Shown here in pieces: positions 9,180 to 32,868 of a stretch of 64,000 nucleotides of DNA (within the stretch, counting starts at the first letter, position 1; every line of letters starts with the position of its first letter). The stretch comes from Streptomyces sp. NBC_01454 (GTDB taxonomy: Bacteria > Actinomycetota > Actinomycetes > Streptomycetales > Streptomycetaceae): assembly GCF_036227565.1 (NCBI RefSeq), contig NZ_CP109460.1:5952001-6016000 (forward strand), given 5' to 3'. A model generated the notes under the pieces. It saw nothing but the letters and a program-made list of their open reading frames with translations. It ran no database searches and was not told where the DNA came from. The translations under genes and the position numbers were made by a program.

Positions 9180-9348
9180 GGTGCGGGCTCCCGAGGTTGG
9201 TGAGGGGCAGCCCCGACCGTATCCGCGGGACGGCGGCCGGCGCACAACCCCCCTGACGGAGCGCGTGGCCGGGACCCTTCCGGGGGCCCCTGCCCCGGAA
9301 AGTGACGCTCGATGCCTGCCGGTGGCCGCCGTGCACCACAATGGGCCG

Positions 9349-13620: not shown

Positions 13621-14645
13621 GCCGATACCTCCGCGTACTGCTGGTCCATGTCGTCCTCGGATGCGCCGGTCCCGGACGCCTTGTGGCCGGTGACGGCCAG
13701 GAACACCTCGTCCAGGCTGGGCAGATGGGTGTCGATGCCGGCGAGCGCGAAGCCCTGCCGGCCGAGCACCGCGACCACCGCGGTCAGCTGTTCGTCGCTG
13801 ATGATCGGTACGTTGACCACACCCCCGTCGTGGTCAGCCGTGGCGTCCGCGATGCCGTCCAGGCCGGCCCGGGTCACGGCGGCCGCCATCCGCTCCAGCT
13901 CGCCGGCCTCGGACGGCCGGATCTGGAGTGTGCGCCCGCCGACCTTGGTCTTCAGTTCGTCGACCCCGCCCTCGGCGATCACCCGGCCGCGGTCGATCAC
14001 CGTCAGCTCGTGCGCCAGCTTCTCGGCCTCTTCCATGTACTGGGTGGTCAGCAGCACCGTCGCGCCCTCGCGCACCATCCGCTGGACCTCCTCCCACACC
14101 TCGTTGCGGGTGCGGGGATCCAGACCGGTGGTGGGCTCGTCCAGATAGAGGACCGAAGGGCGGCCGATCATCGAGGCGGCCAGGTCGAGCCGGCGGCGCA
14201 TACCGCCGGAGTATTTGGCCGCGGGCCGCCTGGCGGCGTCGGTCAGCGAGAACCGCTCCAGCAACTCGTCCGCGCGCCGGCGGGCGTCCTTGCGGGACAG
14301 ATCGAGCAGCCGCCCGATCATGTAGAGGTTCTCCCGGCCGGAGAGTTTTTCGTCGACCGAGGCGTACTGCCCGGTCAGGCCGATCGTGCGGCGCAGTGCG
14401 CGGGGCTGGCGCACCACGTCGTAGCCCGCCACCACGGCCCGGCCGGCGTCCGGCACCAGGAGGGTGGACAGGCAGCGTACGAGCGTCGTCTTGCCGGCGC
14501 CGTTGGGGCCGAGCACCCCGAGCACGGTGCCTTCCTTCACGTCCAGGTCCACTCCGTCGACGGCCTTGACCGCGCCGAAGTGCTTGACCAGACCGCGCAC
14601 CTCCACGGCGTTGCCGCCCTTGGTGGTTATCGTCTGTCGCGTCAT
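13617..14645 (-). CDS. ABC exporter ATP-binding protein, DrrA-like
   Basis: A 342-residue ATPase. Walker A is GPNGAGKTT, the Q loop lies in IGLTGQYASVDEKLSGRENL, the signature is YSGGMRRRLDLAASM (a DrrA-type variant of LSGGQ), Walker B is VLYLDEPTTGLDPRTR and the H-region follows VLLTTQYMEEAEKLAHE. The last 90 residues are the DrrA C-terminal domain (LPSLDEVFLAVTGHKA). ATG at 14645 was chosen over upstream Arg-rich frame extension. The gene diverges from the polyketide synthase gene across 281 bp, so it may export the cluster product, though the DrrAB pair looks more like part of the conserved left flank with the SARP gene. Confidence 0.9.
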   Translation of the reverse strand: MTRQTITTKGGNAVEVRGLVKHFGAVKAVDGVDLDVKEGTVLGVLGPNGAGKTTLVRCLSTLLVPDAGRAVVAGYDVVRQPRALRRTIGLTGQYASVDEKLSGRENLYMIGRLLDLSRKDARRRADELLERFSLTDAARRPAAKYSGGMRRRLDLAASMIGRPSVLYLDEPTTGLDPRTRNEVWEEVQRMVREGATVLLTTQYMEEAEKLAHELTVIDRGRVIAEGGVDELKTKVGGRTLQIRPSEAGELERMAAAVTRAGLDGIADATADHDGGVVNVPIISDEQLTAVVAVLGRQGFALAGIDTHLPSLDEVFLAVTGHKASGTGASEDDMDQQYAEVSA

Positions 14646-14846
14646 GCCCCCAAGGTGCCAGCCGCCACCGACAACGCACCGACAGGCCGCCGACAGTGCG
14701 GCCGGGACGCCGGCGCTGCGCACCTCTCGTGGTCGTCGGCGGCCCCTTCTCGTGGTTACCGCAAGGCCGGTCGCCGCGCACCACGGACTTCTCCGGGGCT
14801 CGTTGACGACGCCTCGTTCCCCGTTTGAGGCTGAGGCCACCGAGTC

Positions 14847-14886
14847 GCATACGTGTGCGTTTCTGTCGTCGGCAGCACACGTGCGC
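14847..14886. promoter_or_regulatory. Spaced inverted repeat upstream of the synthase operon
   Basis: GCATACGTGTGC (14847-14858) and GCACACGTGCGC (14875-14886) are inverted copies matching at 10 of 12 positions, with an inner perfect 8-bp ACGTGTGC/GCACACGT, separated by 16 bp. The repeat ends 40 bp before the GTG start of the first synthase gene. It is a candidate activator site, perhaps for the LAL regulator of the cluster; that link is inference. The rest of the 281-bp gap shows no gene. Confidence 0.45.
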
Positions 14887-14926
14887 ATTCGTCCCCCCAC
14901 GAGCGAACGATGTCTTCGGAGTACCT

Positions 14927-17900
14927 GTGACCACTGCACCCGTGCCGGAAGCTGTGCTGGGCATCAGTCCGTTCGGTGAACCCGATCCGAGAATCGTCGC
15001 GGCGGTCTGCCGGGCCGGCGGGCTGGGCGTGCTCGACCTCGGGGCGGGGGACCGGCGGGCCAGGGAGGCGCTGGCATCCCTCCGGCAGTGGGCGCCGGGG
15101 CCGTTCGGGGTCCGGATGGCCGCCGGGTGCGCCCTGGCCGCCGCGGACCTGGTGGAGGGCGGGAGCGTGCACACGGTGCTGCTCGCCGCCGACTCGCCCG
15201 TGCGGCCGGGCGATCTGCCGGCCAAAACCCGGGTCCTCGTCGAGGTCACCAGCCGGGAGGAGGCGATCGGCGCCGCCCGCGCCGGTGCCCACGGCCTGGT
15301 CGCCCGCGGACAGGAGAGCGGCGGGCGGATCGGTGACCTGAGTACCTTCGTGCTGCTCCAGCAACTGGTGGCGGAGCCCGAGTTGGCCCTGCCCGTATGG
15401 GCCTGCGGCGGTATCGGACCGCACACCGCCGCCGCTGCCGTGGTCGGCGGCGCGGTGGGAGTCGTGCTGGACTCCCAGTTGGCGCTGCTCGAGGAGTCCG
15501 CCCTGCCCGCGGACGTGGCCGCGGCGGTGCGGACCATGGACGGCTCGGAGACGGTGGTGGCGGCCGGCCACCGGGTGCTGCGCCGCCGGGGGCCGGACGC
15601 GCCGCCGCTGCCCGAGGACCCGGCGGCGGCGGCCCGCCTGCTCGGTGCCCAGGACCTGCGGGTCCAGCTGCTCCCCGTCGGACAGGACGGCTTCCTGGCT
15701 TCCCGTTTCGCACGGCAGTGGGGCGATGTCGGCGGGGCGGTCCGCGCGGTCACCGCCGCCGTCCTCGACGCGGTGCGCGACGACGCCCCCTCGCACGCGC
15801 TGCGCCGTGACTCCCCGATGAGCCGGGCGCTGGGCACCCGCCTGCCCCTCGCCCAGGGGCCGATGACGCGGGTCAGTGACCAGGCACCGTTCGCCGCGGC
15901 GGTCGCCGAGGGCGGCGCCCTGCCGTTCGTGGCCCTGGCACTGGCCGGGCCGGAGCAGACGCGGACCCTGCTGGAGGAGACCCGCTCCGCGCTGGACGGC
16001 CGGCCGTGGGGCGTGGGCGTACTCGGCTTCGCGCCCGAGCACACCAAGGCGGCCCAGCTCGAGATCATCCGGGAGCTGCGGCCCTCCTGCGCCATCATCG
16101 CCGGAGGCCGGCCCGCGCAGGCGGCGTCGCTGGAGGAAGCCGGCATCGAGACGTTCCTGCACGTGCCCTCGCCCGGGCTGCTCACGCAGTTCCTGGGCGC
16201 CGGTGCCCGCAAGTTCGTCTTCGAGGGCTCCGAGTGCGGCGGCCACGTCGGACCGCGCAGCAGCTTCGCGCTGTGGGAGGCGCAGATCGCCGTCCTCACC
16301 GACTTCCTCGACGCGGCCGGGGGCGCCGATCCCGGTGAGCTGAGGGTGCTGTTCGCCGGGGGCATCCACGACGCGCGGTCCTCGGCGATGGTCGCCGCGC
16401 TCGCCGCCGGGCTGAGTGCCCGTGGCGTCGCCGTCGGTGTGCTCATGGGTACCGCGTACCTGTTCACCGAGGAGGCGGTGAGCTGCGGCGCGGTCCAGCC
16501 CCTGTTCCAGCGGCAGGTCCTGGCGGCGCGGCGGACCGAACTGCTGGAGACCGCGCCCGGACACGCCACGCGCTGTGTGTCCAGCCCCTTCACCGAGAGC
16601 TACCGGTCCCTCAAGGAGGAGCTGGAGTCCCGGGGCGTGGCCGACCGGCAGGCGTGGGAGCAGCTGGAACGGCTCAATGTCGGCCGGCTGCGGATCGCCA
16701 GCAAGGGCGTCGAGCGGACCGGTGCGCACCTGGTCGAGGTGCCGGCGGCCCGACAGCTCGCCGAGGGCATGTTCATGGCGGGTGACGTGGCCGCGCTGCG
16801 GTCCCACGTCACCACGATCCCCGCGCTGCACGAGTCGGTCAGCACCGCGGCCGCCGACTTCTTCACCGAGCGCGCCGCGCTGGTGCGCGACCGGCTCGGA
16901 GCCGCCCGGCCCGCGGACGGTGCCGCGCCCCCAGCTCCCCTGGACATCGCCGTGGTCGGGATGTCCTGCATGTTCCCGGACGCCGCGGACCTGGCGAGCT
17001 ACTGGGCCCACGTGGTCGCGGGAGCCGACGCCGTCACCGAGGTGCCCACCGAGCGGTGGGACCCCGAGGTCTACTACGCGCCCGAGGCGGACGAGGCCCA
17101 CACGGAGTCGAAGTGGGGCGGGTTCCTGCCGGACATCCCGTTCGACCCGTTGCGCTACGGGATCCCGCCGTCCTCACTGGGCAGCATCGAGCCGGTGCAG
17201 CTGCTGGCACTCGAGGCCGCGCGGCGGGCACTGGAGGACGCCGGGTACGCCGGGGGTGCCCCCGCCGGGGGCGAGGGGCGGGACTTCGACCGCTCCCGGG
17301 CCTCCGTCGTCTTCGGGGCGGAGGCGGGCAGCGACCTGTCCAACGCGGCCACGCTGCGCACCCTGCTGCCGGCCTACCTGGGAGAACTGCCCCCGGAACT
17401 GGCCGCACAGCTGCCCCGGCTCACCGAGGACTCCTTCCCCGGGATGCTGGCCAACGTCATCTCCGGCCGGATCGCCAACCGGCTCGACCTCGGCGGCGCC
17501 AACTACACCGTGGACGCCGCCTGCGCCTCGTCGCTGGCCGCGGTGGACGTGGCGTGCAAGGAACTGTCCGGGGGCACCAGCGACCTCGTCCTGTGCGGCG
17601 GCGCCGACCTGCACAACGGCATCAACGACTATCTGCTCTTCTCCTCGGTGCACGCCCTGTCGCCGACCGGCCGCTCCCGCACCTTCGACAGCGCCGCGGA
17701 CGGCATCGCGCTCGGCGAGGGCGTCGCCTGCCTCGCGCTCAAGCGGCTGACCGACGCGGAGCGGGACGGGGACCGGGTCTACGCCGTGATCAAGGGCGTC
17801 GGCACCGCCAGCGACGGCAAGGGCCTCGGCCTGACCGCACCCCGCCCGGAGGGACAGCGCGCCGCCCTGGAACGCGCGTACCGCAACGCGGGGATCTCGC

Positions 17901-20900
17901 CCGCGCAGGTCGGCCTGGTGGAAGCCCACGGCACCGGGACCGTGGTCGGTGACCGGACCGAACTGGCCGCCCTCACCGAGCTGTTCACCGAGGCCGGAGC
18001 CGCCCCCGGCAGTTGTGCGCTCGGGTCGGTGAAGTCGCAGATCGGGCACACCAAGTGCGCCGCCGGCCTGGCCGGTCTGATCAAGACCGCCATGGCGCTG
18101 CACACCGGGGTCAAGCCGCCCACGGCGCACCTGGAACGGCCCAACCCGGCCTGGCAGGAAGGCAGCAGTCCGTTCGCGTTCCACACCTCGGCGCGGCCGT
18201 GGGCGGCCCCGCCGGCCGAGCGGGTCGCCGGGGTCAGCGCCTTCGGCTTCGGCGGCACCAACTTCCACGTCGTGCTGCGCGCCCACGCCGGGGGGCCGCC
18301 ACCGGCGCACGGGCTCGACGCGTGGCCGGCGGAGCTGTTCGTCTTCCGCGGCACCGACCGAAAGGACGCCCACCGGACCATCGAGGAACTGCTGACGCTG
18401 GCCGCGACGAACGACGACCACGGGCGGCCCTGGCGGCTGCGCGACTTCGCGGTGACCGCCTCCCGCCGCAGCGACACCTGCGCACACCCGGCGCAGTCGG
18501 CCGTCGTGGCCGGTGACCTGGACGAGCTGGCCCGGCTGCTGCGGCGGGCGCTCGCGGGCGAGCACGATCCGTCGGCGGGAGTCTTCGCCGCCGGTGCGGA
18601 CGGCCCGGCCGGCGAGCCCGGGGCCGCGGCGGACGTGGCGTTCCTCTTCCCCGGTCAGGGCAGCCAGCGGCCGGACATGCTCGCGGAGCTGTTCGTCGCC
18701 TTCCCCGAGACCCAGCACTACCTCCAACTCGGCCGGGAGTGGGCCGACGCCCTCTACCCGCCGACCGCCTTCGACCCGGCCGTGGCGGACGGGCAGCGGG
18801 CCCGGATCACCGACACCAGGGTCGCGCAGCCCGCGCTGGGCATCGTTGAACTGGCCGTGCACCGGTTGCTGCTGCGGTCCGGAGTGCAGCCGGCCATGAT
18901 GGCCGGGCACAGCTACGGCGAGCTGGTCGCGCTGTGCGCCGCGGGGGCGTTCGACCCCGCGACCCTGCTGGAGCTGAGTGCGGCACGGGCGGAGGCGATC
19001 CTGTCCGCCGCCGGCACGGACCCGGGCGCCATGGCCGCCGTCTCGGCCGGCGCCGCGCAGGTGTCCGCGCAGTTGCGCGCCGCCGGCCTCGCGGACCACG
19101 TCGTCGTCGCGAACCACAACGCGCCCGAACAGACCGTCATCTCCGGGCCCACCGAGGCGGTCGGGACGGCGGTGGAGCGGCTGCGGGAGAACGGCTGTGG
19201 CGCCAAGCTGATCCCCGTGGCCTGCGCCTTCCACAGCCCCGTCGTCGCCGGTGCCGGTGAGCGGTTCGCCGGGGCGCTCGCCAAGCGCCCGGTGCGCGGG
19301 CCGGAGGTGCCGGTCTGGTCCAACCGCACGGCCGCCGTCCATGCGGGACGGCCCGAGGACGTGCGCGGCGAACTGGCCGCCCAGATCGGCGCGCCGGTGC
19401 GCTTCGTCGAGCAGATCGAGGACATGTACCGGGCGGGCGCCCGCACGTTCGTGGCCGTCGGACCCGGTTCGGTGCTCACCACGCTGGTGTCCCAGATCCT
19501 CCATGACCGTCCGCACTCCACCGTGGCCTGCGAGACACCGGACCACCGGGGACTGCGCGGCTTCCTCGGCGCGCTCGCCCAGCTCGCCGTGGCCGGTGTG
19601 CGGGTGCGCACCGGCTGGATGTTCCAGGGCCGCGACGCCACCGAACTGAGCCAGGCGACCTCACCCGAGCGACCTGGCTGGACCGTCAACGGGCAACTGG
19701 TGCGCACCACCGACGGCAGCCCGCTGCCCGGTTCGCTCCGGCCGGCCCGACGTATCCAGGAGATATCCGTGACGAAGGCAGACCACGGCGACGCCGTCGC
19801 CCAGCGGGACCACATGGTCTCCGAATTCCTGCGCACCAGCCGGGAGATCGTCGCCGCGCAGCGCGATGTGCTGCTCACCTACTTCGGTGCCGCACCGGGC
19901 ACGCCGGTGGCCGCACCCCCGCCCCCGGCCGCGCCCCTCCCCCCGGCGCTCCGGCCGGCCGAAGCGGCCCTGTCCGCGCCCGGTGCACCCGTCCCCTCCG
20001 AGGCCGCCCGGGCCGGCACGCCGCCGTCCCCCGGCGACGCCCCGACGGCCGGCGCGCCGGAGGCGGTCGGCGAGGCCGATGTGCTGCGGACCGTCCTGGA
20101 CATCGTCAGCGAACGCACCGGCTACCCGGTGGACATGATCGAACCCGACCTCGACCTGGAAGCCGACCTGAGCATCGACTCGATCAAGCGGATCGAGATC
20201 GCCGGTGAGCTCGCGGCGCGCCTCGGTGCCGGCGCCCGGGGCGGCCCGGACGCCCCTCAACTCGACGACGCGGAGCTGGACGTGCTGTCCCGGGCCCGCA
20301 CCGCCGCCGGCCTCGCGGACCTGCTGGCCGCGCGGCTCCACGGCAGCGGGCGGCACCGGGACGACGACGGCGCCGAGAGCCCCGAGGAGCCGCGTCCCGT
20401 GCACGAGCCCGCGCAGGCTCCGGCCGGGCATCCGGCCCCGGCCGGGCATCCGAACCCCGAGCCGGTGGCCGCCGAGGCGCCCACTCGGATGGTGCTGCAC
20501 AGAACCGCCCTTGCGGAGCCGGCGGAAAGCGTCACCGCCCTGGCCGGAAAGCGGATCGCGCTGATAGGCGGCCACGGCCCGGTGTCCGAGAGCCTGTCCG
20601 CCCAACTCGCCGCACACGGCGCACGGACGGCCGTCTTCGGCCCGGGGCACCTGCTCACGGATCAGGACGGCCCGTGGGACGGCGTGTTCCATCTGGAGGC
20701 GCTGACCGCTGCCGAGGATCCGCTCCTGCCGGAGGGCTTCCCGGTCTTCCAGGCCGCGTTGGGCCACGGCCCGCGGTGGCTGATCGCGGCCGCCCCGGCC
20801 GCCGGCGCGAGCGGTGCCCACTGGTCCGAAGGCCGGGCGGACGGACTGCGCGGAATGTTCCGGACCATCGCCCGGGAGTACCCGGACACGGTCGCCAGGT

Positions 20901-21955: not shown

Positions 21956-21956
21956 G

Positions 21957-24900
21957 ATGACGTCCTGCGCACACGGCCCGGGCCCCCGGGTCGCCATCGT
22001 CGGAATGGCCGTCCTGCTGCCGGGGGCGGCAGACCTCCAGGCGTACTGGCGGAACCTCGCGGCCGGATTCGACGCGATCACCGACGTCCCCGCCGGACGG
22101 TGGGACGCCGACTTCTACGATCCGCAGGCGGTGGGACGCTCGGACCGTGTCTACTGCCGGCGGGGCGGGTTCGTCGACGACCTGGCCGACGTCGAGGTGA
22201 CCCGGTTCGGCATCATGCCCCACTCGGTGGCGGGTACCGAACCGGACCAGCTCCTCGCGCTGAAGGTGGCGGCCGATGCCCTCGCGGACGCCGGCGGCGA
22301 GCACCGGCTGCCCGCCCGCGACCGGATCGGCGTGGTCCTGGGCCGCGGCGGGTATCTGACGCCCGGACTCTCCCGTGGATCCCAGCGGGTACGGACGGCC
22401 AATCAGCTCGTCCGCACGCTCGGCGAGCTGCTGCCCGGCCTCGGTGCCGACCGGCTGGAGCAGGTGCGGCAGGCGTTCACCCGGCAGCTCGGGCCGGACG
22501 AACCCGAGCAGGCGATCGGCCTGGTGCCCAACCTCACCGCCTCGCGGGTGGCCAACCGGCTCGACCTGCGCGGCCCCGCGTACACGGTGGACGCTGCCTG
22601 CGCGTCCTCGCTGGTCGCGGTCGACCAGGCGGTGGGCGAACTGGCGAGCGGGCGCTGCGACGTGGTGCTCGCCGGCGGTGTGCACCACTGCCACGACATC
22701 ACCCTGTGGAGTGTGTTCTCCCAGCTCCGCGCGCTGTCCGTGAGCCAGCGGATCCGCCCGTTCGACCATGCCGCGGACGGCCTGCTGATCGGTGAGGGCA
22801 CCGGCGTCGTGGTCCTCAAGCGGCTCGCCGACGCGGAGCGCGACGGCGACCGGATCTACGCCGTCATCCGGGGCGTCGGGGTGGCGAGCGACGGCCGCAG
22901 CGGCAGCCTCGTCAACCCGGACCCCGCCGGGCAGGTGCGGGCGGTGCGGCAGGCGTGGCGGAGCGCCGGTCTCGACCCCGCCGCGCCCGGATCGGTCGGG
23001 CTGCTGGAGGCCCACGGGACCGCCACCCCCTCCGGGGACGCCGCCGAACTGGCCACCCTGGCCGAGGTGTTCGGACCTGCACCCGGCAACGACCGGGCGG
23101 TGCTCGGGTCGGTGAAGTCGATGATCGGCCACACCATGCCGGCCGCGGGCGTGGCCGGCCTGGTCAAGGCGGCGCTCGCGGTGCACCATGCGGTGCTGCC
23201 GCCGACGCTGCACTGCGAGGATCCACACCCCGCGCTGGCCGCCACCCGGTTCCGCCCGATCGCCTCGGCGGAGCCCTGGGAGACCGATGCGGGCACGCGG
23301 CGGGCCGCCGTGAACGCCTTCGGCTTCGGCGGCATCAACGCGCACGTGGTGCTCGAAGCGGCGCCCGGCGCCGTGGCCGGCCGGCGGATCCGGCCCACGG
23401 CCGCGGTGCGGGAGAAGGAACGGGTGCTGCGGCTCACCGCCGACAGCCCCGAGCAGCTCGCCACGCTGCTGGACGCCGAGGACCCGGCCGTGCTGGCGGC
23501 CGGCCTCGACGACCGGGCCCCCCGCGGCCACGGCCGCAGCCGGCTCGGCATCGTCGACCCCACCGCCAAACGCCTCGCGCTGGCCAGGAGGGCCGTGGCC
23601 AAGGGCCGTTCCTGGCGGGGCCGCGGCGACGTGTGGTTCACCCCCGAGCCCCTGCTCGGCACGGACGGCGGCGGCCGGGTGGCATTCGTCTTCCCGGGGC
23701 TCGAAGCGGAGTTCCAGCCCCATGTCTCCGATGTCGCCGAACACTTCGGGCTGTCCGGCCTGCTCCCCCAAGCCCGCGCCGGGCGGCCGGCGCAGGTGGC
23801 GGACGTCGGCCGGCACGGTGCCGAGGTGGTGGGCGTGGGACGGGTGCTGGACGCCGCCCTGCGCCGCATCGGCATCGTGCCGGACGCGGTCGCGGGCCAC
23901 AGTGTGGGGGAGTGGACCGCGATGATCGCCGGGGGGCTGTTCGCCGGCCCCGCGGTGGACGAGTTCGTGGCGTCCTTCGACCCGGACGAGCTGCGGGTGC
24001 CCGACCTGGCCTTCGCGGTCCTGGGTGCGTCGGCCGACCGGGTCGCGGCCGCCCTCGTGGACCGCCCCGAGATCGTGCTGTCCCACGACAACGCGCCGGA
24101 CCAGGCGATGGTGTGCGGTCCGCCCGGCCCGGTGGACGACCTCGTGCGCTGGTTTCGCGCGCGCCACGTCCTCGGCCGCGTCCTGCCGTTCCGGTCCGGC
24201 TTCCACACCCCCATGCTGGCCCCCTACCTCGAACCGATTCGCCAGGCCGCCGCCCGGTTCGCGCTGTATCCGCCCACCGTGCCCGTGTGGTCGGCGACCA
24301 CCGCGTCGGTGTATCCGCCCGCCGAGGCGGAGGTGCGCGCGCTGTTCCTCCGTCATCTGCTGGAGCCGGTGCGCTTCCGCCCGCTGATCGAGGCGATGTA
24401 CGCGGCCGGCTTCCGGGTGTTCGTACAGGCGGGAACGGGCCAGGCCGGCGCGCTGATCGGCAACACGCTGCACGGCCGGCCGCACCTGACGGTGGCCGCC
24501 AGCTCCCCGCACCGCAGCGGACTGGCCCAACTGCAGCACGTCGCCACGGCGCTGTGGGTGGACGGCGGGGATCCGCAACCCGGTCCGCCGGCGGCCGGCC
24601 GCGGCGCGCCGGCCAAGCCCGCGCCGGTCCGGCTGGACCTCGGCGGGCCGCTGGTCTCCCTCGACCAGCGGACGCTGAACGACCTGCGCCCGGCGCTCGC
24701 CGGCGGACACGCGGCCACCGCCGGCGCGGAACCGGCCCCGCTGGAGCAGCTGGCCGCCCGCTTCCCCCTGGCGGGCGAACTGGGCGCACTGCTCAAGGAC
24801 ACCGCGGACACCGCCGCGGCGGTGATCACGGCCGCCGGCACGGCGCACCCGCGCTCACCTGCACCCCCGACAGCACCTGCACCCCCGGCAGCACCTGCAC

Positions 24901-26621
24901 CCCCGACAGCACCTGCACCCCCGGCAGCACCTGCACCCCCGGCAGCACCTGCACCCCCGGCAGCACCTGCACCCCCGGCAGCACCTGCACCCCCGGCAGC
25001 ACCTGCACCCCCGACAGCGCCGGCCCCTCCGGCACCACACAGCCCTCCGGCCCCGTCCGGAGGCGAACTCAGCGCCGTGCTGCGGGTGTCCACGGCGACC
25101 ATGCCCTACCTCCTCGACCACTGTCTCTTCTCCCAGCGCCCCGACTGGCCCGACGAGTCGGACCGCTGGCCGGTGGTCCCGGCCACCACGGTGATCCAGC
25201 ACATGCTGGAGTTCGCCGAGCGGGCGGCGCCCGGCACCAGGGCGGTAGGGGTGCACGGGGTGCACCTGAAGCGGTGGGCGACGGCCAGCCCGCCGGTCGA
25301 GGTACCCGTGACGGTGGCGGCGCGCGGGCCCGGGCGGGTCGGCGTGGCCTTCGGGCAGTTCGCCGCTGCCGAGGTCGAACTGGCGGCGGAGCATCCCGAC
25401 GATCCGCCCCGCCCGTGGGCGTGGGATCCCCGGGACGAGCGGCGTCCGCAGATCACGGCCGAGGAACTGTACGGCGAGCGCTGGATGTTCCACGGCCCCC
25501 TGTTCCAGGGCGTCACCGAGCTGACCGCGATCGGGGAGGCGCATGTCCGCGGGGTGCTCACCACCCCGGCCGCCCCCGGCGCCCTGCTGGACAACGTGGG
25601 GCAGCTCCTCGGCTACTGGATCATCACCACCCTGACCGAGCGGACCGTGGTGTTCCCGGTGCGGATGAAGGAGATGCGCTTCTTCGGCCCGCATCCCGCA
25701 CCGGGTGCCCGGCTGGAGTGTCTCATCACGATCACCTCGGTCACCGACTCCGCGGTGGAGGCCGACATGCAGCTCGTCGCCGACGGCCGGGTATGGGCGC
25801 AGATCAACGGCTGGCAGGACCGCCGCTTCGACAACCGCCTGGAGACCAGGGTTCAGGAACGGTTCCCCGAGCGGCACACGCTGTCCCGCGAAGAGCAGGG
25901 CGGCTGGTGGCTCGTGCACGACCGGTGGCCGGACCTCGCCTCGCGCGATCTCGTCATGCGCAACCATCTGAGCAGCGCCGAACGTGCCGACTACGAGCGG
26001 TGTCCGCCACGCGGCCGCCGCCAGTGGCTGCTGGGCCGCATCGCGGTCAAGGACGCGGTCCGCCGGTGGCTGTGGGAACACGGTGCGGGCCCGGTCTTCC
26101 CTGCCGAGATCCGGGTGCGCAACGACGACAGCGGACGGCCGTGGGTCGCCGGCCTCCACGGCCGGGTCCTTCCCGAGCTGGACGTCACGCTGGCGCACTG
26201 CGCGGAGACCGGCGTGGCCCTCGTACGGCCCCGCGGCACGCACGGGCCCGGCGGGGTCGGCATCGACGTCGAGGAGATCACCGAGCGGCCCGTGCAGACA
26301 CAGATGATGGCGCTCGGCCGGGCCGAGCGCGAGCTCCTGGTGGCGCGGTGCGCCGGGACACAGGAACCGGAAGCCCTGTGGTTCACCCGGTTCTGGGCGG
26401 CGAAGGAGGCCGCGTCGAAGGCGGAGGGCACCGGCTTGCGGGGGCGGCCGCGGGATTTCCGGGTGGTCGCCGCACAGCCGGACGAGTTGGTGGTGGATTC
26501 CGGGAGCCGCGTGCACCGGGTGCACTGCCGCCGGATCAGCAACATGGCCGACCTGCCGAGCAGGGACTACGTCGTCGCCTGGACGACGGGCACGGCCGAC
26601 GAAGGAAAGAGGAAGCGTTGA
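21957..26621 (+). CDS. Second synthase subunit: KS-AT-DH-phosphopantetheinyl transferase
   Basis: A 1554-residue partner. KS (1-460) keeps the full triad: Cys215 in DAACASSLV, LEAHGTATPSGD and KSMIGHTMPAAG, so it is not a chain-length-factor-type inactive KS. An AT domain (about 575-880) has Ser649 in GHSVGEW and GFHTP, but its first motif is FPGLEAEF instead of FPGQGSQ. A proline repeat (about 967-1020) leads to a hotdog dehydratase (1040-1290) with His1055 (LLDHCLF) and Asp1212 (LLDNVGQ). The last 200 residues are an Sfp-type PPTase with Asp1437/Glu1439 (GIDVEE) and WAAKEAASKAEG. Fusion of the PPTase recalls enediyne and some PUFA synthases and suggests in-house activation of both ACPs. The start lies 1 nt after the previous stop. 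Confidence 0.87.
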   Translation: MTSCAHGPGPRVAIVGMAVLLPGAADLQAYWRNLAAGFDAITDVPAGRWDADFYDPQAVGRSDRVYCRRGGFVDDLADVEVTRFGIMPHSVAGTEPDQLLALKVAADALADAGGEHRLPARDRIGVVLGRGGYLTPGLSRGSQRVRTANQLVRTLGELLPGLGADRLEQVRQAFTRQLGPDEPEQAIGLVPNLTASRVANRLDLRGPAYTVDAACASSLVAVDQAVGELASGRCDVVLAGGVHHCHDITLWSVFSQLRALSVSQRIRPFDHAADGLLIGEGTGVVVLKRLADAERDGDRIYAVIRGVGVASDGRSGSLVNPDPAGQVRAVRQAWRSAGLDPAAPGSVGLLEAHGTATPSGDAAELATLAEVFGPAPGNDRAVLGSVKSMIGHTMPAAGVAGLVKAALAVHHAVLPPTLHCEDPHPALAATRFRPIASAEPWETDAGTRRAAVNAFGFGGINAHVVLEAAPGAVAGRRIRPTAAVREKERVLRLTADSPEQLATLLDAEDPAVLAAGLDDRAPRGHGRSRLGIVDPTAKRLALARRAVAKGRSWRGRGDVWFTPEPLLGTDGGGRVAFVFPGLEAEFQPHVSDVAEHFGLSGLLPQARAGRPAQVADVGRHGAEVVGVGRVLDAALRRIGIVPDAVAGHSVGEWTAMIAGGLFAGPAVDEFVASFDPDELRVPDLAFAVLGASADRVAAALVDRPEIVLSHDNAPDQAMVCGPPGPVDDLVRWFRARHVLGRVLPFRSGFHTPMLAPYLEPIRQAAARFALYPPTVPVWSATTASVYPPAEAEVRALFLRHLLEPVRFRPLIEAMYAAGFRVFVQAGTGQAGALIGNTLHGRPHLTVAASSPHRSGLAQLQHVATALWVDGGDPQPGPPAAGRGAPAKPAPVRLDLGGPLVSLDQRTLNDLRPALAGGHAATAGAEPAPLEQLAARFPLAGELGALLKDTADTAAAVITAAGTAHPRSPAPPTAPAPPAAPAPPTAPAPPAAPAPPAAPAPPAAPAPPAAPAPPAAPAPPTAPAPPAPHSPPAPSGGELSAVLRVSTATMPYLLDHCLFSQRPDWPDESDRWPVVPATTVIQHMLEFAERAAPGTRAVGVHGVHLKRWATASPPVEVPVTVAARGPGRVGVAFGQFAAAEVELAAEHPDDPPRPWAWDPRDERRPQITAEELYGERWMFHGPLFQGVTELTAIGEAHVRGVLTTPAAPGALLDNVGQLLGYWIITTLTERTVVFPVRMKEMRFFGPHPAPGARLECLITITSVTDSAVEADMQLVADGRVWAQINGWQDRRFDNRLETRVQERFPERHTLSREEQGGWWLVHDRWPDLASRDLVMRNHLSSAERADYERCPPRGRRQWLLGRIAVKDAVRRWLWEHGAGPVFPAEIRVRNDDSGRPWVAGLHGRVLPELDVTLAHCAETGVALVRPRGTHGPGGVGIDVEEITERPVQTQMMALGRAERELLVARCAGTQEPEALWFTRFWAAKEAASKAEGTGLRGRPRDFRVVAAQPDELVVDSGSRVHRVHCRRISNMADLPSRDYVVAWTTGTADEGKRKR
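24856..25017 (+). repeat. Nine tandem 18-bp repeats encoding a proline-rich linker
   Basis: Nine consecutive copies of an 18-bp unit (CACCTGCACCCCCGRCAG) vary only at one G/A position. They encode the hexapeptide Pro-Ala-Pro-Pro-(Ala/Thr)-Ala between the AT and DH domains. Near-identity of the copies implies recent expansion or ongoing slippage; copy number may differ among strains without breaking the frame because the unit is a multiple of three. It is a coding repeat, not a CRISPR array: the copies are contiguous with no spacers. Confidence 0.95.
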
Positions 26622-26962
26622 ACAGCAGTCAGGCGCAGGATCCGGTCCTTGCCGAAGGGCCCGATGAGACCGCCGTGTTCGGCGAGATCGCCGGGATGCT
26701 CCACTCCGTGCTCGACGAGTACGGAGAGCAGGACGTCGAGATCACCATGGACACCAAGTTCCACGACGACCTGGACCTGGAGAGCATCGATCTGGTCACT
26801 CTCGGCGGCCGGTTGGCGGCGCGGTACGGCGAGCGGGTGAACTTCGCCGAGTTCCTGGCCGGACTCGAACTCGAAGAGATCATCTACCTCACGGTCGGTC
26901 AGCTCGTCACGTTCGTGGTGGGCTGCCTGCGGGAATCCGGGGGCGCTGAGCCGTGGCGATGA
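26618..26962 (+). CDS. Discrete acyl carrier protein
   Basis: A 114-residue acidic carrier protein. The phosphopantetheine serine is in DDLDLESIDLVTLGGRLAARYG, followed by VNFAEFLAGLELEEI, typical of helix 3 in ACPs. The TTG start at 26618 overlaps the upstream TGA (TTGA) and has an AGGA-rich sequence before it; no ATG or GTG lies upstream in a plausible place. As a separate carrier beside the integral ACP of the first synthase it may accept a starter, hold the finished chain for release or glycosylation, or act in trans during extension. It is probably activated by the PPTase fused to the preceding protein. Confidence 0.88.
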   Translation: MNSSQAQDPVLAEGPDETAVFGEIAGMLHSVLDEYGEQDVEITMDTKFHDDLDLESIDLVTLGGRLAARYGERVNFAEFLAGLELEEIIYLTVGQLVTFVVGCLRESGGAEPWR

Positions 26963-27768
26963 TCCACGCCAACGGCGTCGCGCTGCATGTGGAGCGGATG
27001 CCCGCCCGGAACACCACGGGCACCGCGCCGCCGCCCACCGTGGTGTTCGTCCACGGCATGCTCGTGGACAGCCTCGTCAGCTACTACTTCACCCTGGCAC
27101 CGGTGTTCGCCGCCGCGGGGATCGACGTGATCATGTACGACCTGCGCGGGCACGGGCGCAGCGAGCGGCGGGCGGACGGCTACCTGCTGGAGGACTTCGT
27201 CGGGGACCTCGACGCGCTGCTCGACCGGCTGGAGGTGACCGGGCCGGTCCACCTCGTCGGCAACTCCTACGGCGGCACGATCGCGTTCAGCTACGCGGCG
27301 CGGCGCCCGGAGCGGGTGGCCAGCGTCTCGCTGATCGAATCGGAGCCGGCGACCGACGCCTGGTCCCGCAAGATGGCCGTCAACCTTGAGCGCGCGAGCG
27401 TGGAGTTCGCCCGTGCGGACCTGCACGAGCGGCTGGCGGAGGAACACGGGCCGCATGCGACCCGGCGGGTGCGGTCGGCGTCGCGGCTGCTGCACTCCAG
27501 CACCATGGCCCGGGACGTCCCGGCCAGCCAGGTGCTGGACGAGGACCAGATCCGGTCGGTGCGCTGTCCGGTCCTGGCCATCTACGGCAGCGAGTCGGAA
27601 CTCGCGGTCCAGGAGCCGTGGCTGAAGTCGCTGCTCGACGACTGCCGGACCGTTGTGGTGCCGGACCAGGAGCACTGGGTCCTGATGGGTGCCACGCAGC
27701 AGGTGAGCGAGCTGATCTCGGCATGGGTCCGCGCGCACGACGCGAGGGCGGAGGCCGGCAGCCCGTGA
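26953..27768 (+). CDS. Alpha/beta hydrolase, candidate chain-release enzyme
   Basis: A 271-residue alpha/beta hydrolase. The oxyanion region is VVFVHGMLVDS, the strand-4 block is YDLRGHGRSER, the nucleophile elbow is GNSYGG and the catalytic His is in PDQEHWVLMG. The position of the usual acid after strand 7 reads IYGSESELA, with Glu rather than Asp, so the acid residue is either Glu or displaced. The GTG at 26953 and the ATG at 26959 are both possible; the latter overlaps the ACP stop as ATGA. Its place directly after the ACP gene supports a thioesterase or ester-forming role in releasing the acyl chain, by inference only. Confidence 0.82.
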   Translation: MAMIHANGVALHVERMPARNTTGTAPPPTVVFVHGMLVDSLVSYYFTLAPVFAAAGIDVIMYDLRGHGRSERRADGYLLEDFVGDLDALLDRLEVTGPVHLVGNSYGGTIAFSYAARRPERVASVSLIESEPATDAWSRKMAVNLERASVEFARADLHERLAEEHGPHATRRVRSASRLLHSSTMARDVPASQVLDEDQIRSVRCPVLAIYGSESELAVQEPWLKSLLDDCRTVVVPDQEHWVLMGATQQVSELISAWVRAHDARAEAGSP

Positions 27769-28952
27769 GCAGGTTCCTCTTCGTGGTGCCGCCGCTGGTC
27801 GGCCACATCAACCCCACCCTCGGGGTCGCGGCACACCTGGTCCGGCGCGGTCACCAGGTGGCCTGGGCGGGACTGCCGGCTGTCGTGGCACCCCTCGCGG
27901 GGGAGCGGGCAACGGTGTTCCCCTGTGCCGCGCCGCCGCTGGACGACCCGGCCCTGGTCCGGCCGCTCTCCCTCCGGGGCCCGGCGGCGCTGAAATTCCT
28001 CTGGGAGATGTTCCTCGGGCCGCTGGCGGAGACCATGGCACCCGGCGTCCGTGCCGCGGTCGGGGAGTTCCGTCCGGATGTCCTGGTCGCCGATCAGCAG
28101 GCCGTCGCCGGCGGGCTGGTGGCCGAGCGGCTCGGTGTGCCCTGGGCCACCTCCGCGACCACCTCGGCGGGGTTCACCGCGTTCGCGGGCATCCCGAAGG
28201 TGGAGGCCTGGGTGGCCGGGCTGATCCACGGCCTGCGGCAGCGGATCGGCGATCCGGCCGGCGACGCGGACCCGCGGATGTCCCGCCGTCTCGTGCTGGC
28301 GTTCAGCACCGAGGCACTGGTGGGGCCCGCCGGATCCTTCGGCGACCAGGTGCGGTTCGTCGGTCCGTCGATCGCTCCCCGCCCCTCGCCGGGCGACTTC
28401 CCCTGGGAGTGGCTGGACTCCGGGCGCGCCACCGTGCTGATCACCCTCGGCACGGCCAACAGCGAGGTCGGGCCGCGTTTCCTCGCCGAGTGCGCCGAGG
28501 CGGTGCGGGCACGGTCGGACCGTCTCCAAGCCGTCGTCGTCGACCCCTCGGGGACCCTGGACGTCTCCCACGACCGGATACTCGTGCGCCCGAGCGTGCC
28601 CCAACTGGCGCTCCTGGAACGGTGCGAGGCGGTGATCTGTCACGGCGGGCACAACACCGTCTGCGAGGCGCTGTGGCACGGACTGCCGCTGGTGGTCGCA
28701 CCGATCCGGGACGACCAGCCCACCGTCGCCGCCCAGGTGGCCGAGGCCGGTGCGGGGCTGCGGGTGCGGTTCAACCGGGTGACGGCCGGCCACCTCGGCA
28801 CGGCACTCGACGCCGTTCTGTACGAGCCGGGCTACCGGGCCGCCGCCGAGCGGGTGCGCGGGTCCTTCCGCGCCGCCGGCGGCGCGGACGCCGCGGCCGC
28901 ACACCTCGAACGCCTCGCCGTCCGCACCGCCGCAGAGAGGCTTCGCCCATGA
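27765..28952 (+). CDS. Glycosyltransferase, GT1/MGT-type
   Basis: A 395-residue GT-B fold enzyme of the macrolide glycosyltransferase type, transferring a nucleotide-activated sugar to a small acceptor. The N-terminal acceptor domain starts FLFVVPPLVGHINPTLGVA with the catalytic-position His of the GHINP block. The C-terminal donor domain has the PSPG-like stretch CHGGHNTVCEALWHGLPLVV followed by PIRDDQPTVAAQVAE. The GTG at 27765 overlaps the hydrolase stop. Lying within the synthase operon, it probably glycosylates the cluster's lipid or polyketide. The sugar is not predictable and no deoxysugar genes are present, so a common UDP-sugar is likely. Confidence 0.9.
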   Translation: MSRFLFVVPPLVGHINPTLGVAAHLVRRGHQVAWAGLPAVVAPLAGERATVFPCAAPPLDDPALVRPLSLRGPAALKFLWEMFLGPLAETMAPGVRAAVGEFRPDVLVADQQAVAGGLVAERLGVPWATSATTSAGFTAFAGIPKVEAWVAGLIHGLRQRIGDPAGDADPRMSRRLVLAFSTEALVGPAGSFGDQVRFVGPSIAPRPSPGDFPWEWLDSGRATVLITLGTANSEVGPRFLAECAEAVRARSDRLQAVVVDPSGTLDVSHDRILVRPSVPQLALLERCEAVICHGGHNTVCEALWHGLPLVVAPIRDDQPTVAAQVAEAGAGLRVRFNRVTAGHLGTALDAVLYEPGYRAAAERVRGSFRAAGGADAAAAHLERLAVRTAAERLRP

Positions 28953-30004
28953 ACCGGGCCGCACAGGTCGCCGCGCTTCGCCCCCGCTACCAGGACGACC
29001 TCGCCCGCGGCGTGGCGCGGTTCTTCCGGCCGCGGCGCACCGACTGCCCCTGGTGCGGGTCGGAGCAGCTGGAGGTCCGGCTGCGGACCCCCGATCTGCT
29101 CCAGCACAAACCCGGCCGGTTCGTCCTGGAACGGTGCCGGGAGTGCCGCCACACGTTTCAAAACCCCCAACTCAACGAGGACGGGCTGGAGTTCTACTAC
29201 CGCGACTTCTACGACGGACTGGGTGAGGAGAACCTCGCGACGCTCTTCCGGGCGCACGACAGGGCCTACCGGCTCAGGGCGGGCGCCGTGACGCCCCACG
29301 CCGAGCCGGAGACCTGGCTCGACGTGGGCACCGGACACGGGCACTTCTGCGACGCGGCACGGGCCCTCCTGCCCCGTACGGTCTTCGACGGGCTGGACAT
29401 CGGCGCGGGCGTCGAATCGGCCCAGGAGCGGGGCTGGGTACGGCGCGGCCACCGCGGCAGCTTCGTGGCGCTGGCCGGGGAACTCGCCGGGCACTACGAC
29501 GTGGTGAGCATGTTCCACTACCTGGAGCACAGCACGGACCCCGGGCGCGAGCTGGCAGCGGCGCACCGGGCGCTGCGTCCCGGCGGCCACCTGCTGATCG
29601 AGGTACCGGACCCGCGGTGCTGGTTCGGCCGGCTCCTCGGCCGCTGGTGGCTGCCCTGGCTACAGCCGCAGCACCTGCACCTCATCCCGGTGGGGAACCT
29701 GCGCCGGCGGCTGACGGAACTCGGGTTCACGGTGGTCGCGGAGGAGCACGCGGAGCCGCACGATCCCGTGGACCTGCTCACCGCCGGATGGCTGGCCGTG
29801 AACAGCCTGGCCCCCCGGAGGGACGAACCGTGGCACGCCGCGCCACCCGGCACGGTCCGCCGTGTGCTGCGCGGCACCGTGCTCGCCGCCGGCCTCCCGC
29901 TCCTCACGGCCGGCTGGCTGCTCGACCGGCTCCTCACACCCGTGGCCCACCGGGCCGGTCTGTCGAACGCCTACCGGCTGCTCGTCCGCCGCGATGACGG
30001 GTGA
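28949..30004 (+). CDS. SAM-dependent methyltransferase with N-terminal zinc ribbon
   Basis: A 351-residue class I methyltransferase. Residues 30-75 hold four cysteines in two pairs (CPWCG and CRECRHTFQNP), a zinc-ribbon common before methyltransferases that act on sugars or surface glycans. Motif I is WLDVGTGHGHFCD, the acidic motif II is FDGLDIG, and post motifs include DVVSMFHYLEHSTDP and LRPGGHLLIEVPDP. The C-terminal 60 residues contain a hydrophobic stretch (LAAGLPLLTAGWLLDRLL) that could associate with membrane or a lipid acceptor. ATG at 28949 overlaps the glycosyltransferase stop. Substrate may be the glycosyl group or the acyl chain. The last 34 bp overlap the convergent regulator gene. 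Confidence 0.86.
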   Translation: MNRAAQVAALRPRYQDDLARGVARFFRPRRTDCPWCGSEQLEVRLRTPDLLQHKPGRFVLERCRECRHTFQNPQLNEDGLEFYYRDFYDGLGEENLATLFRAHDRAYRLRAGAVTPHAEPETWLDVGTGHGHFCDAARALLPRTVFDGLDIGAGVESAQERGWVRRGHRGSFVALAGELAGHYDVVSMFHYLEHSTDPGRELAAAHRALRPGGHLLIEVPDPRCWFGRLLGRWWLPWLQPQHLHLIPVGNLRRRLTELGFTVVAEEHAEPHDPVDLLTAGWLAVNSLAPRRDEPWHAAPPGTVRRVLRGTVLAAGLPLLTAGWLLDRLLTPVAHRAGLSNAYRLLVRRDDG

Positions 30005-32868
30005 GGGCCGGGGCCGGCCATGGCGGCGGCCAGATGGTGGCGGCCGGCTATCCCGAACTTGCGGTAGGCGCCCGTCAGATGGGTCTCGACGGTCCGCAGG
30101 GACACCACGAGCAGTTCGGCGATCTGCTTGTTGCTGTACCCCTGCACGGCCAGTGCGCTGACGCGCTCCTCGCCGGGAGTCAGCAGGTTCCCGCCGGGTC
30201 TGGCCGCCCGCCCGCCGGCCTCGTGCAGCGGGCCCCGCAGCCGGGTGGCGAGCGCGGTGGCACCGCATCCGGTGGCCAGCTCCAGGCCGCGCTGGAGGGC
30301 GTCGCGGGCGCCGCTCCGGTCGTCCCTGCGCAGCAGCGCGACGCCGAGGTCGCCCAGCGTGCGGGCGAGGTCGAGGCGGGCCGGGGTGGCGGTGAGTACG
30401 CTCACCGCCTCGCCGAGCAGATCCAGCCCGCGGGTTCCTTCCGCCGCCCTCCCGGCCGCGCGCAGCGCCACGCCGAGGGCCCGCGGGATGCGGCTCTGCC
30501 GGGCGAGGTCGAGTTCCTGCTCGATGAGGGCGTGCGCCGCCGGGGCGTCCCCCAGCGCCAGGTGAGCGGCGGCGGCCCGGGAGCGCCAGGGGCAGATCGC
30601 CGGGTTGACCGTCCCCGCGGCGTCGAGGTGGTGGCCGCACTCCCGCAGCAGGGCCAGCGCGGTCCGCGGCTCGCCCTGGGACATCCGCAGCGCGGACAGG
30701 CTCATGAGGAACAACGGCCTCTCCCAGCCCGCTTCCTGCGGTTCCTTGGGGGAGCGGGTGAGCACCACCTGTTCGGCCGCGTCGAGGTGCCCCTGTTCGA
30801 GGAGCGCGTTGATCCTGATGATGTCCAGGGTGGTCGCGTACGGCCGGGTGCCGGCGGCGGGGCGCCGGCCGGCGGCCGCCTGGGCCGTGACGAGGGCCTC
30901 GGTGACGTTCCCTCCCTGCCACGCCAGCGCGGCCTGCAGGACCGACAGCGAGGAGTCGAGCAGTTCCAGGCCCTTGACCTCGACCCCCTGGGTCAGCTGC
31001 CGGATGAACCGGTCCACCCTGTCGAGCTCGTCGAGGTAGAAGAGGGTCTGCGCGACGAAGTAGTGCAGCGGAAACAGATCGTGGGAGAAGACCGGCAGGT
31101 TGACGCAGGCGCGGTCGACGAGTTCGGCCACGTATGGGGCCGGGACCGCCGCCTTGAGCGAGTGGAACGCGTGGAGGGCGAGCAGCTGCCGTTCCCCCGG
31201 CGTGCGGCCGACCAGGCCCTCGACGGCCACCGGCGCCGACGGCTCCGGTGTCCGGGCCGCGGGCCGCTCGTACTCCCGCCAGGAACGCAGCGCCCGCATG
31301 CGCAGCACCAGTTCACGGTCGGCGCCGCCGTTCTCCGTCTCGCCGCAGAGCTCCGCGATCAGGCGGTCCACGCTGGACAGCACCCCGCGCGGCCGCTGGG
31401 AGAACAGCAGGCAGTAGGTCAGTACGCCCAGGGCGTCGCGCCGGGCGGTCTTCTCGGTCAGCACCTCCAGCGCGCCGGTGACGTACGACAGCGCCAGGTC
31501 GGCGTCGTAGTGACCGGCCGCGACGCCGAGTTGGAGCAGGATGGGGCCGCGCTCGGCCGCCCCCGGACGCTGGCCCAGCGCGGAACGCAGATAGGTGACC
31601 GCCACCTCCGGCGCGCCGCGGTGCAGCGCCTCGTCGGCCGCTCTGCGCAGCACCGTTACCGCCCAGGCCCCCTCCACCGGGCCGGCCGCCAGCAAGTGGG
31701 CCGCCACTTCCTCGTCGGGCCGGCCGGCGAGATACGACACGTGTGCCGCCCTGGCGTGTCCCTGGCCGCGCTCCTCGGGCGACATCGTCGCCAGCACGGT
31801 CTCCCGCACGACCTGGTGGACGAAGCAGGGGTCGCCACCGGACCGCAGGAGACCGAGCGACCAGAGATCGGCGGCCGCCGCACGCACCACGGCTTCGCCG
31901 CTCCCGCAGTACGCGGCGAGCAGCTCGGCCGGTTTGCGATCCCCCAGGACCGCCAGGGCATGCGTCAACTCCACCGCCTCTCGGGACCCTTGGGAGAGCC
32001 GGTGCATGACCTCCCGGTTGAGGGTGGACAGCGTCACGGTGCGCAGGCGGTCGCGGAACTCCGCCGTCGGCTGCACGCCGGCGAGCTGCGCGTGGTGCAG
32101 CAGCGCGCACAGGAAGAGCGGGTGGCCGCCGGTGGCGGCATGGCAGGCGGCGGAGAAGGGCGCGTCGGGCTCCTCCGTTCCCCACATGTGCTGCGCCAGT
32201 TGCCGCACGCCGGGGACGTCGAGGGGTTCCAGGGCGATCTTGTGGCAGTGGTCGGGCCGTACGAGTTCGGCGAACAGCGGGTCGGGCTTGCGGAATTCGC
32301 CGGTGCGGTTGACCACCGCCACCAGGACGGGGCGGGTGTCGGCGCGCAGGACGAAACGGGCCAGCCAGCGCAGTGACGGTGTGTCGATCCACTGCAGGTT
32401 GTCGATCGCCAGCAGCAGCGGCTGCCGGTCGGCCAGGTGCAGGGCGAGAGCGTCGAGTCCGTCCAGCGCCGTGGCGCTCGAGCGGGGTCCGGTCGCCGGG
32501 GTGTCCGTGCGGGCGCCGTCCTCCAGCACCCGCAGTGCCGCCGCCTCCGTCCCCGCCGGCAGCGCTGCCCGCTCGGCTTCGGTGGCCGACTCCATGACGG
32601 GCTGGAACAGCTGGCGCACCGCGCCGAACGCGAACTCCCGCTCCAGCGGACGGCAGCGCGCCCACAGCACCCGGAACCGCTGGTCGCGACGGCACCAGCC
32701 GTTCAGCAGAGCCGACTTGCCCATGCCCGCGGGGCCTTCGATCTGCACCACGTAGGACCGGCCGGACACCACATGCGCGGCCACCGCCTCCAGTGTGGCC
32801 AGCTCGGCACTGCGGCCGACCAGTGGCCGGTCCTGCCCGCACTCGGTGTGCCGCGGTCCGAAACTCAC
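29971..32868 (-). CDS. LAL-family LuxR regulator of the synthase cluster
   Basis: A 965-residue large ATP-binding LuxR-type regulator. The N-terminal AAA-like ATPase has Walker A EGPAGMGKSALL at about residue 46 and Walker B LLLAIDNLQWIDTPSL. A long helical TPR-like middle follows. The C-terminal HTH (about 895-955) reads LTPGEERVSALAVQGYSNKQIAELLVVSLRTVETHL, the LuxR signature. LAL proteins commonly activate polyketide clusters, and this is the only regulator within the block, so it is the probable pathway activator. It is convergent with the methyltransferase and shares 34 bp of coding sequence with it. ATG at 32868 opens the frame with MSFGPRHTECGQDRPLVGR. Confidence 0.9.
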   Translation of the reverse strand: MSFGPRHTECGQDRPLVGRSAELATLEAVAAHVVSGRSYVVQIEGPAGMGKSALLNGWCRRDQRFRVLWARCRPLEREFAFGAVRQLFQPVMESATEAERAALPAGTEAAALRVLEDGARTDTPATGPRSSATALDGLDALALHLADRQPLLLAIDNLQWIDTPSLRWLARFVLRADTRPVLVAVVNRTGEFRKPDPLFAELVRPDHCHKIALEPLDVPGVRQLAQHMWGTEEPDAPFSAACHAATGGHPLFLCALLHHAQLAGVQPTAEFRDRLRTVTLSTLNREVMHRLSQGSREAVELTHALAVLGDRKPAELLAAYCGSGEAVVRAAAADLWSLGLLRSGGDPCFVHQVVRETVLATMSPEERGQGHARAAHVSYLAGRPDEEVAAHLLAAGPVEGAWAVTVLRRAADEALHRGAPEVAVTYLRSALGQRPGAAERGPILLQLGVAAGHYDADLALSYVTGALEVLTEKTARRDALGVLTYCLLFSQRPRGVLSSVDRLIAELCGETENGGADRELVLRMRALRSWREYERPAARTPEPSAPVAVEGLVGRTPGERQLLALHAFHSLKAAVPAPYVAELVDRACVNLPVFSHDLFPLHYFVAQTLFYLDELDRVDRFIRQLTQGVEVKGLELLDSSLSVLQAALAWQGGNVTEALVTAQAAAGRRPAAGTRPYATTLDIIRINALLEQGHLDAAEQVVLTRSPKEPQEAGWERPLFLMSLSALRMSQGEPRTALALLRECGHHLDAAGTVNPAICPWRSRAAAAHLALGDAPAAHALIEQELDLARQSRIPRALGVALRAAGRAAEGTRGLDLLGEAVSVLTATPARLDLARTLGDLGVALLRRDDRSGARDALQRGLELATGCGATALATRLRGPLHEAGGRAARPGGNLLTPGEERVSALAVQGYSNKQIAELLVVSLRTVETHLTGAYRKFGIAGRHHLAAAMAGPGPHPSSRRTSSR

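Follow-up and report, generated by a model that had tools for sequence, protein, structure and literature searches.

A six-gene synthase locus

The window analyzed here is a 64-kb stretch (64,000 nucleotides) of the genome of Streptomyces sp. NBC_01454 (contig NZ_CP109460.1, positions 5,952,001 to 6,016,000), and our subject is a candidate lipid or polyketide biosynthetic cluster within it. Six plus-strand genes, designated A to F, lie in a single tight run at window positions 14927 to 30004; A and B are separated by 1 nucleotide (nt), and each of the remaining four junctions is a 4-nt overlap. An earlier note, made from the sequence alone, had described seven coupled genes plus a LAL-type regulator. 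All of the parts that it listed were detected, namely, an acyl carrier protein (ACP), an alpha/beta hydrolase, an MGT-type glycosyltransferase, a Methyltransf_23 protein, and the LAL regulator, but the coupled genes number six and the regulator is convergent with them.

Gene A (14927..21955, plus strand) encodes a protein of 2,342 amino acids in which Pfam identified two NMO stretches, a ketosynthase (KS), an acyltransferase (AT), a single PP-binding stretch, and a ketoreductase (KR), bearing out the NMO-NMO-KS-AT-ACP-KR string proposed earlier. With NCBIfam and fold comparisons added, the protein reads as a degenerate FabK-like barrel 1, an intact FabK-like barrel 2, and KS-AT-ACP-KR. The cysteine and both histidines of the KS were kept in 80 of 80 relatives. 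In barrel 1 (approximately 14927..15800, plus strand), the position of the catalytic histidine is replaced; 69 aligned sequences have R (57), P (9), H (1), L (1), or Q (1) there. Barrel 2 (approximately 15803..16876, plus strand), the presumed enoyl reductase (ER), retains His440 in 69 of 69. Barrel 1 probably has a structural role, to judge from this alignment. By both NCBIfam and fold, the reductase appears nearer FabK than PfaD; of the earlier claim of a PfaD/FabK-like reductase, the FabK-like part stands, with the histidine position lost in 68 of 69 first barrels.

Gene B (21957..26621, plus strand; 1,554 amino acids) encodes KS, AT, a polyketide synthase (PKS)-type double-hotdog dehydratase (DH), and a phosphopantetheinyl transferase (PPTase), again as first described, and no chain length factor (CLF). 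The KS, AT, and ACPS-type PPTase were identified by Pfam, and the DH, which exceeds the cut-off of no Pfam model, was assigned as PKS type by its fold. B holds one KS, with its cysteine present in 80 of 80 relatives, and the KS and AT nucleophiles are retained. A repetitive Ala-Pro linker (PAPPAAPAPP...) is located between the AT and the DH, at 24855-25037.

The four remaining genes are also on the plus strand. Gene C (26618..26962), presumed to start at a TTG that overlaps the stop of B, encodes a discrete ACP; gene D (26959..27768) encodes an alpha/beta hydrolase (Pfam), the presumed release enzyme; and gene E (27765..28952) encodes an MGT/UDPGT-type glycosyltransferase (Pfam UDPGT/EryCIII-like; NCBIfam). 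Gene F (28949..30004) encodes an S-adenosylmethionine-dependent methyltransferase (Methyltransf_23) that has a CxxC pair in its N-terminal part and, at the C-terminal end, a hydrophobic segment, the latter weakly compatible with a membrane-bound lipid substrate. Neither E nor F matched the defense-system models.

Gene order and distribution among relatives

A scan of genome contigs with B matched at least 591 stretches and yielded at least 571 relatives, from which 80 loci were kept; gene order was counted in the 64 of these with room on both sides. All 64 contained genes A, B, and C; D and E were each detected in 63, the exceptions being L009 for D and L034 for E, and F was detected in 41. 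The order of the detected members was identical in 64/64 loci, and the cluster is therefore more than a chance arrangement. Core and split-core genes aside, no further gene family among the 45 largest listed occurred in more than 8 of 82 loci, a figure that may undercount neighbors, since the open reading frame caller used for it split or missed core genes (it recovered the glycosyltransferase in 40/82 loci, versus 63/64 in the gene-order count).

The 520-residue DH-PPTase end of B was present in 57 of 199 Streptomyces genomes, counting the source genome. A wider sample at the level of the order, which overlaps in part with the Streptomyces set, gave 86 of 293 genomes (2 of 9 genera). Twelve genomes of the Streptomyces set have only a distant form of this region (43 to 47% identity); the source genome has both forms. 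Relatives also occur in other genera, Amycolatopsis, Kitasatospora, Kribbella, and Crossiella among them. Two family loci (L029 and L040) are carried by Streptomyces olivoreticuli ATCC 31159, and four hglE-KS regions are reported for S. olivoreticuli YNK-FS0020 (PMC12472026). The family is common among Streptomyces and no peculiarity of NBC_01454. No published product for the cluster was found in the openly licensed PMC literature, as far as it was covered, and PMC8396431 and PMC8510958 merely list hglE-KS clusters in the parts available. On that coverage the cluster is an orphan, and the description "uncharacterized" fits, despite the frequency of the family.

Matches to B of any extent were found in 1,276 plasmid records, 2 of which hold at least 80% of B, at 60 to 80% identity; on one of these two, all six genes are annotated in the same order. 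A six-gene cluster (L097; NZ_CP108492.1) lies on a linear Streptomyces plasmid of 868,851 bases, typed as mobilizable, and has transposase genes of the IS3 and IS6 kinds downstream of it. Given this setting, the cluster may move.

The condensing domains and the polyunsaturated fatty acid question

The phylogenetic position of the KSs was examined in a tree of 53 rows. Family rows came from 15 loci picked before the tree was built (L097 and 14 of the 80), and KS pieces of ≤400 residues were excluded. The rows fam_L034_A_8 and fam_L029_A_20, despite their A labels, represent B domains, and the approximately unbiased (AU) test counted them with B. Six KSs of the source genome were taken as modular because they sit in long multidomain frames; for the AU test, two Rhodococcus plasmid rows were counted with them, and these eight form their own clade (100/100). 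The rows of SgcE, an enediyne PKS, and of CLFs have long branches and unsure places. Grouping the A KSs with the modular KSs was rejected (p-AU 0.0052), whereas grouping the B KSs with them was not (p-AU 0.087); the AU groups were named after inspection of the tree, which weakens both p values.

Profile scores gave a similar separation. The A KS-AT scored 660 bits against the PfaA model TIGR02813 (857 for the whole protein, below the model cut-off of 1010), and the A protein of a second, paralogous cluster in the same genome (described below) scored 638. The B KSs of the window and of the second cluster scored 384 and 355 bits, respectively, and KS-bearing places of the source genome outside both clusters reached at most 359. 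Of the two KS genes, only A is PfaA type by model score, tree, and AU test together, and these analyses support a PfaA-like condensing core in A. The earlier note had placed the synthases in the PUFA/heterocyst-glycolipid branch, apart from modular PKSs. A Pfa-like placement stands for A, for which clustering with modular PKSs is rejected; the B KS could be assigned to neither the Pfa nor the modular type. That the locus is a fragment of an ordinary modular type I PKS is hardly credible: the B KS is inseparable from modular KSs in the tree, but the A KS is not, the modular KSs of the source genome keep to their own clade with the Rhodococcus rows, and no repeated module occurs within the six genes.

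We also considered a true polyunsaturated fatty acid (PUFA) synthase making methylene-interrupted fatty acids like eicosapentaenoic acid (EPA) or docosahexaenoic acid, as predicted in print for SCO0126-0127. The 660-bit score favors it, as does the tree, where the A KS and PfaA rows share one unresolved region. Canonical Pfa systems are described as combining an array of ACPs in tandem with a KS-CLF pair and with DH/isomerase domains (PMC3098273, PMC13291983). A has one ACP stretch (PF00550), compared with six in the control PfaA of Persicobacter and four in that of Streptomyces NBC_00503. Some single-ACP clusters make fatty acyl chains (the ars cluster, PMC3098273), and ACP number alone is therefore not decisive. 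No KS-CLF pair was found, as B holds one KS and the PfaC proteins of Persicobacter and Streptomyces NBC_00503 show two KS-type domains. Pfam detected no FabA-like DH/isomerase in A to F, and PF07977 had no match in the whole source genome; it had matches in 9 of 14 control genomes, and the control FabA domain of Persicobacter PfaC scored 131 bits. Because canonical PfaA also has a PKS-type DH (Streptomyces NBC_00503), it is the missing FabA-type partner, and not the DH of B, that argues against a PUFA. Methylene-interrupted cis double bonds would lack their usual route if no FabA-like DH/isomerase is present; some PKS-type DH domains also isomerize, so that cis bonds are possible. We rejected a PUFA product because a CLF is absent, the ACP stretch is single, the DH is of PKS type, and the search of the whole genome for FabA found nothing; with an ER that appears nearer FabK than PfaD as a further point against it, we regard a PUFA synthase as very improbable. 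The "glycosylated, methylated polyene or PUFA-type lipid" of the earlier note thus keeps its glycosyl- and methyltransferase genes and loses its PUFA part.

Several described systems come close to the cluster. With pfaABCD(E) it shares the PfaA-like KS-AT-ACP-KR core and the ER and PPTase functions, and it differs in its single ACP stretch, the lack of a CLF and of a FabA-like DH/isomerase, the fusion of a FabK-type ER to the PfaA part and of the PPTase to B, and the presence of glycosyl- and methyltransferases. KS, ACP, and KR, with a PfaA-homologous KS, are held in common with the broad group of Pfa-like secondary lipid synthases, of fatty acid synthase/PKS kind (Shulse and Allen 2011, PMC3098273), whose actinobacterial types include L, M, and Q. 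Type L, from Streptomyces coelicolor, has a fused KS-CLF-DH2-AT and a separate PfaD (PMC3098273), whereas here we find KS-AT-DH-PPTase and an ER fused to A. According to Shulse and Allen, PUFA production has not been demonstrated in S. coelicolor (PMC3098273), and SCO0126-0127 of that species serves as the reference for a predicted EPA cluster (PMC5932044); type L presumably corresponds to SCO0126-0127. Type M includes Streptomyces avermitilis and Frankia (PMC3098273) and may or may not be identical to the A-to-F family.

The hybrid pfa-like cluster of Ottowia (El Arnouki Belhaji et al. 2026, PMC13291983) has a PfaD-PfaA fusion, a glycosyltransferase, and a PfaBC without a KS-CLF pair, features with counterparts here; unlike A to F, hybrid clusters contain nonribosomal peptide synthetase/PKS modules, as that source describes them. 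Plasmids of Beijerinckia indica (L102) and Methylosinus sp. C49 (L101) encode an NMO-NMO-KS-AT-ACP-KR protein as in A, with two ACP stretches in the Beijerinckia relative versus one in A. Unlike the B fusion, these alphaproteobacterial relatives have a separate PPTase protein, which in Beijerinckia includes PS-DH and shares 28% identity with the end of B (E 2e-45), and in place of the B KS-AT they have proteins annotated as 3-oxoacyl-ACP synthase III. In another setting, a plasmid of Streptomyces NBC_00503 (L103) carries a Pfa pair of canonical appearance, KS-CLF included, next to genes of dihydroxybenzoate/chorismate type, an arrangement reminiscent of clade V of PMC13291983.

A proposed pathway, a sister clade, and neighboring genes

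We consider it probable that A to F constitute a self-contained iterative reducing lipid or polyketide synthase, with glycosylation of the released chain and, in many relatives, its methylation. Both carriers, the ACP within A and the free protein C, would be primed by the PPTase that ends B, and the KS-AT cores of A and B would elongate a malonyl-derived chain. Reduction of this chain would fall to the KR and the second FabK-like barrel of A together with the PKS-type DH of B. The D hydrolase would then free the chain, E would attach a sugar, and F, where present (41/64 loci), would methylate. Domains, active-site conservation, gene order, distribution, and the absence of a CLF and a FabA-type DH are computed; the reaction order, extender unit, chain, sugar, and methylation site are what we infer. 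The most likely chain is a saturated, hydroxylated, or partly conjugated one and not a methylene-interrupted cis polyene. In addition to the single-ACP fatty acyl clusters, the DH of canonical PfaA, isomerizing PKS-type DHs, and the unrejected grouping of the B KSs, several observations weigh against this reading: one of 69 first barrels retains its histidine (the other 68 do not), the PPTase residues of B are not invariant among relatives, the D nucleophile position is Ser in 65 and Cys in 7 of 72 relatives, and E resembles macrolide glycosyltransferases, so that its substrate need not be a lipid.

The same synthase might seldom use its ER and produce a conjugated polyene glycoside, a pigment. 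PKS-type DHs yield trans-2-enoyl units, and iterative enediyne-type synthases produce polyenes. SgcE (L098) has KS-AT-ACP-KR-DH in common with A and B, presumably followed by a C-terminal PPTase for which Pfam gave no match; it is one polypeptide and had no ER hit. A single KS-AT-ACP-KR-DH-PPTase polypeptide was not found here, and the DH-PPTase did not resemble SgcE significantly (best E 0.018), so an enediyne-like DH-PPTase was rejected. The histidine of barrel 2, conserved in all 69 sequences, also speaks against a pigment, which we consider unlikely. Still less likely is a secreted bioactive polyketide for which E, with D, forms a self-protection pair and not a biosynthetic step. The NCBIfam matches of E include macrolide- and rifamycin-inactivating glycosyltransferases, but all fall under curated cut-offs. 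A divergent ABC-2-type exporter pair (12790..14939, minus strand) adjoins A and is a possible exporter; it adjoins the cluster at >60% identity in 1/64 loci (Streptomyces kronopolitis), versus 63/64 each for D and E; another 11 loci gave weaker ATPase matches.

The six-gene cluster is compact enough for expression and would test whether PfaA-like machinery without a FabA-like DH/isomerase makes reduced or conjugated lipids; it also advises caution with EPA or PUFA labels on such actinobacterial clusters. More tentatively, the family may represent secondary-lipid synthases of a branch that the literature covered does not describe, with a PfaA-type core, tandem FabK domains of which barrel 1 is dead, and a PKS-type DH without a FabA partner. 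Such a branch would yield a glycosylated, often methylated non-PUFA lipid in about 3 in 10 Streptomyces species, possibly with an envelope or developmental role, and its sister branch would add a conserved, apparently dead galactokinase.

The second cluster of the source genome (L091/L092) lies at approximately 1098465-1112400 of G000:C1, on the minus strand, and its A, B, C, D, and E proteins are 54, 56, 39, 38, and 52% identical to those of the window over the best aligned stretch. E is followed by a methyltransferase and then by a protein without a Pfam hit. The sister-clade methyltransferase has a fused N-terminal extension of about 290 residues, likewise without a Pfam hit (L091:10440-11301, minus strand). 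The protein after the methyltransferase is galactokinase-like (L091:8468-9409, minus strand); it was also found in L105 (cut), L106, L107, L108, L110, L111, and L112, that is, in 7 of 8 sister loci fetched, with L109 lacking it, and was absent from loci L001 to L104 except L091. A profile of seven such proteins matched galactokinase 6tep (E 4.9e-14), and all seven matched the NCBIfam galactokinase model at E values up to 1 (best 3.1e-9, far under the cut-off); Pfam gave no hit in the four members scanned. The usual GHMP kinase motif looks lost in the alignment, and the protein is conserved but apparently degenerate. In the tentative reading above, this galactokinase would link the lipid to galactose sensing or binding. 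L109 has the DH-PPTase, ACP, hydrolase, glycosyltransferase, and methyltransferase, but about 13 kb upstream of them hold no recognizable A or KS-AT of B, and a galactokinase-like match is missing although 825 bases follow the methyltransferase match; by its sequence, this cluster is incomplete or rearranged.

No promoter or terminator signal rose above that of shuffled sequence. The LAL-type AAA/LuxR regulator gene (29971..32868, minus strand) is convergent with F and overlaps its 3′ end by 34 nt. Because a homologue occurs in only 1/64 comparable loci (S. kronopolitis), the regulator lies outside the conserved unit; it is a neighbor, and its earlier listing as a cluster component and pathway regulator was not sustained. 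Upstream of the exporter pair, at 8950-12729, is a gene for a large BTAD/SARP-type regulator, which is cluster adjacent at >60% identity in 1/64 loci, also that of S. kronopolitis.
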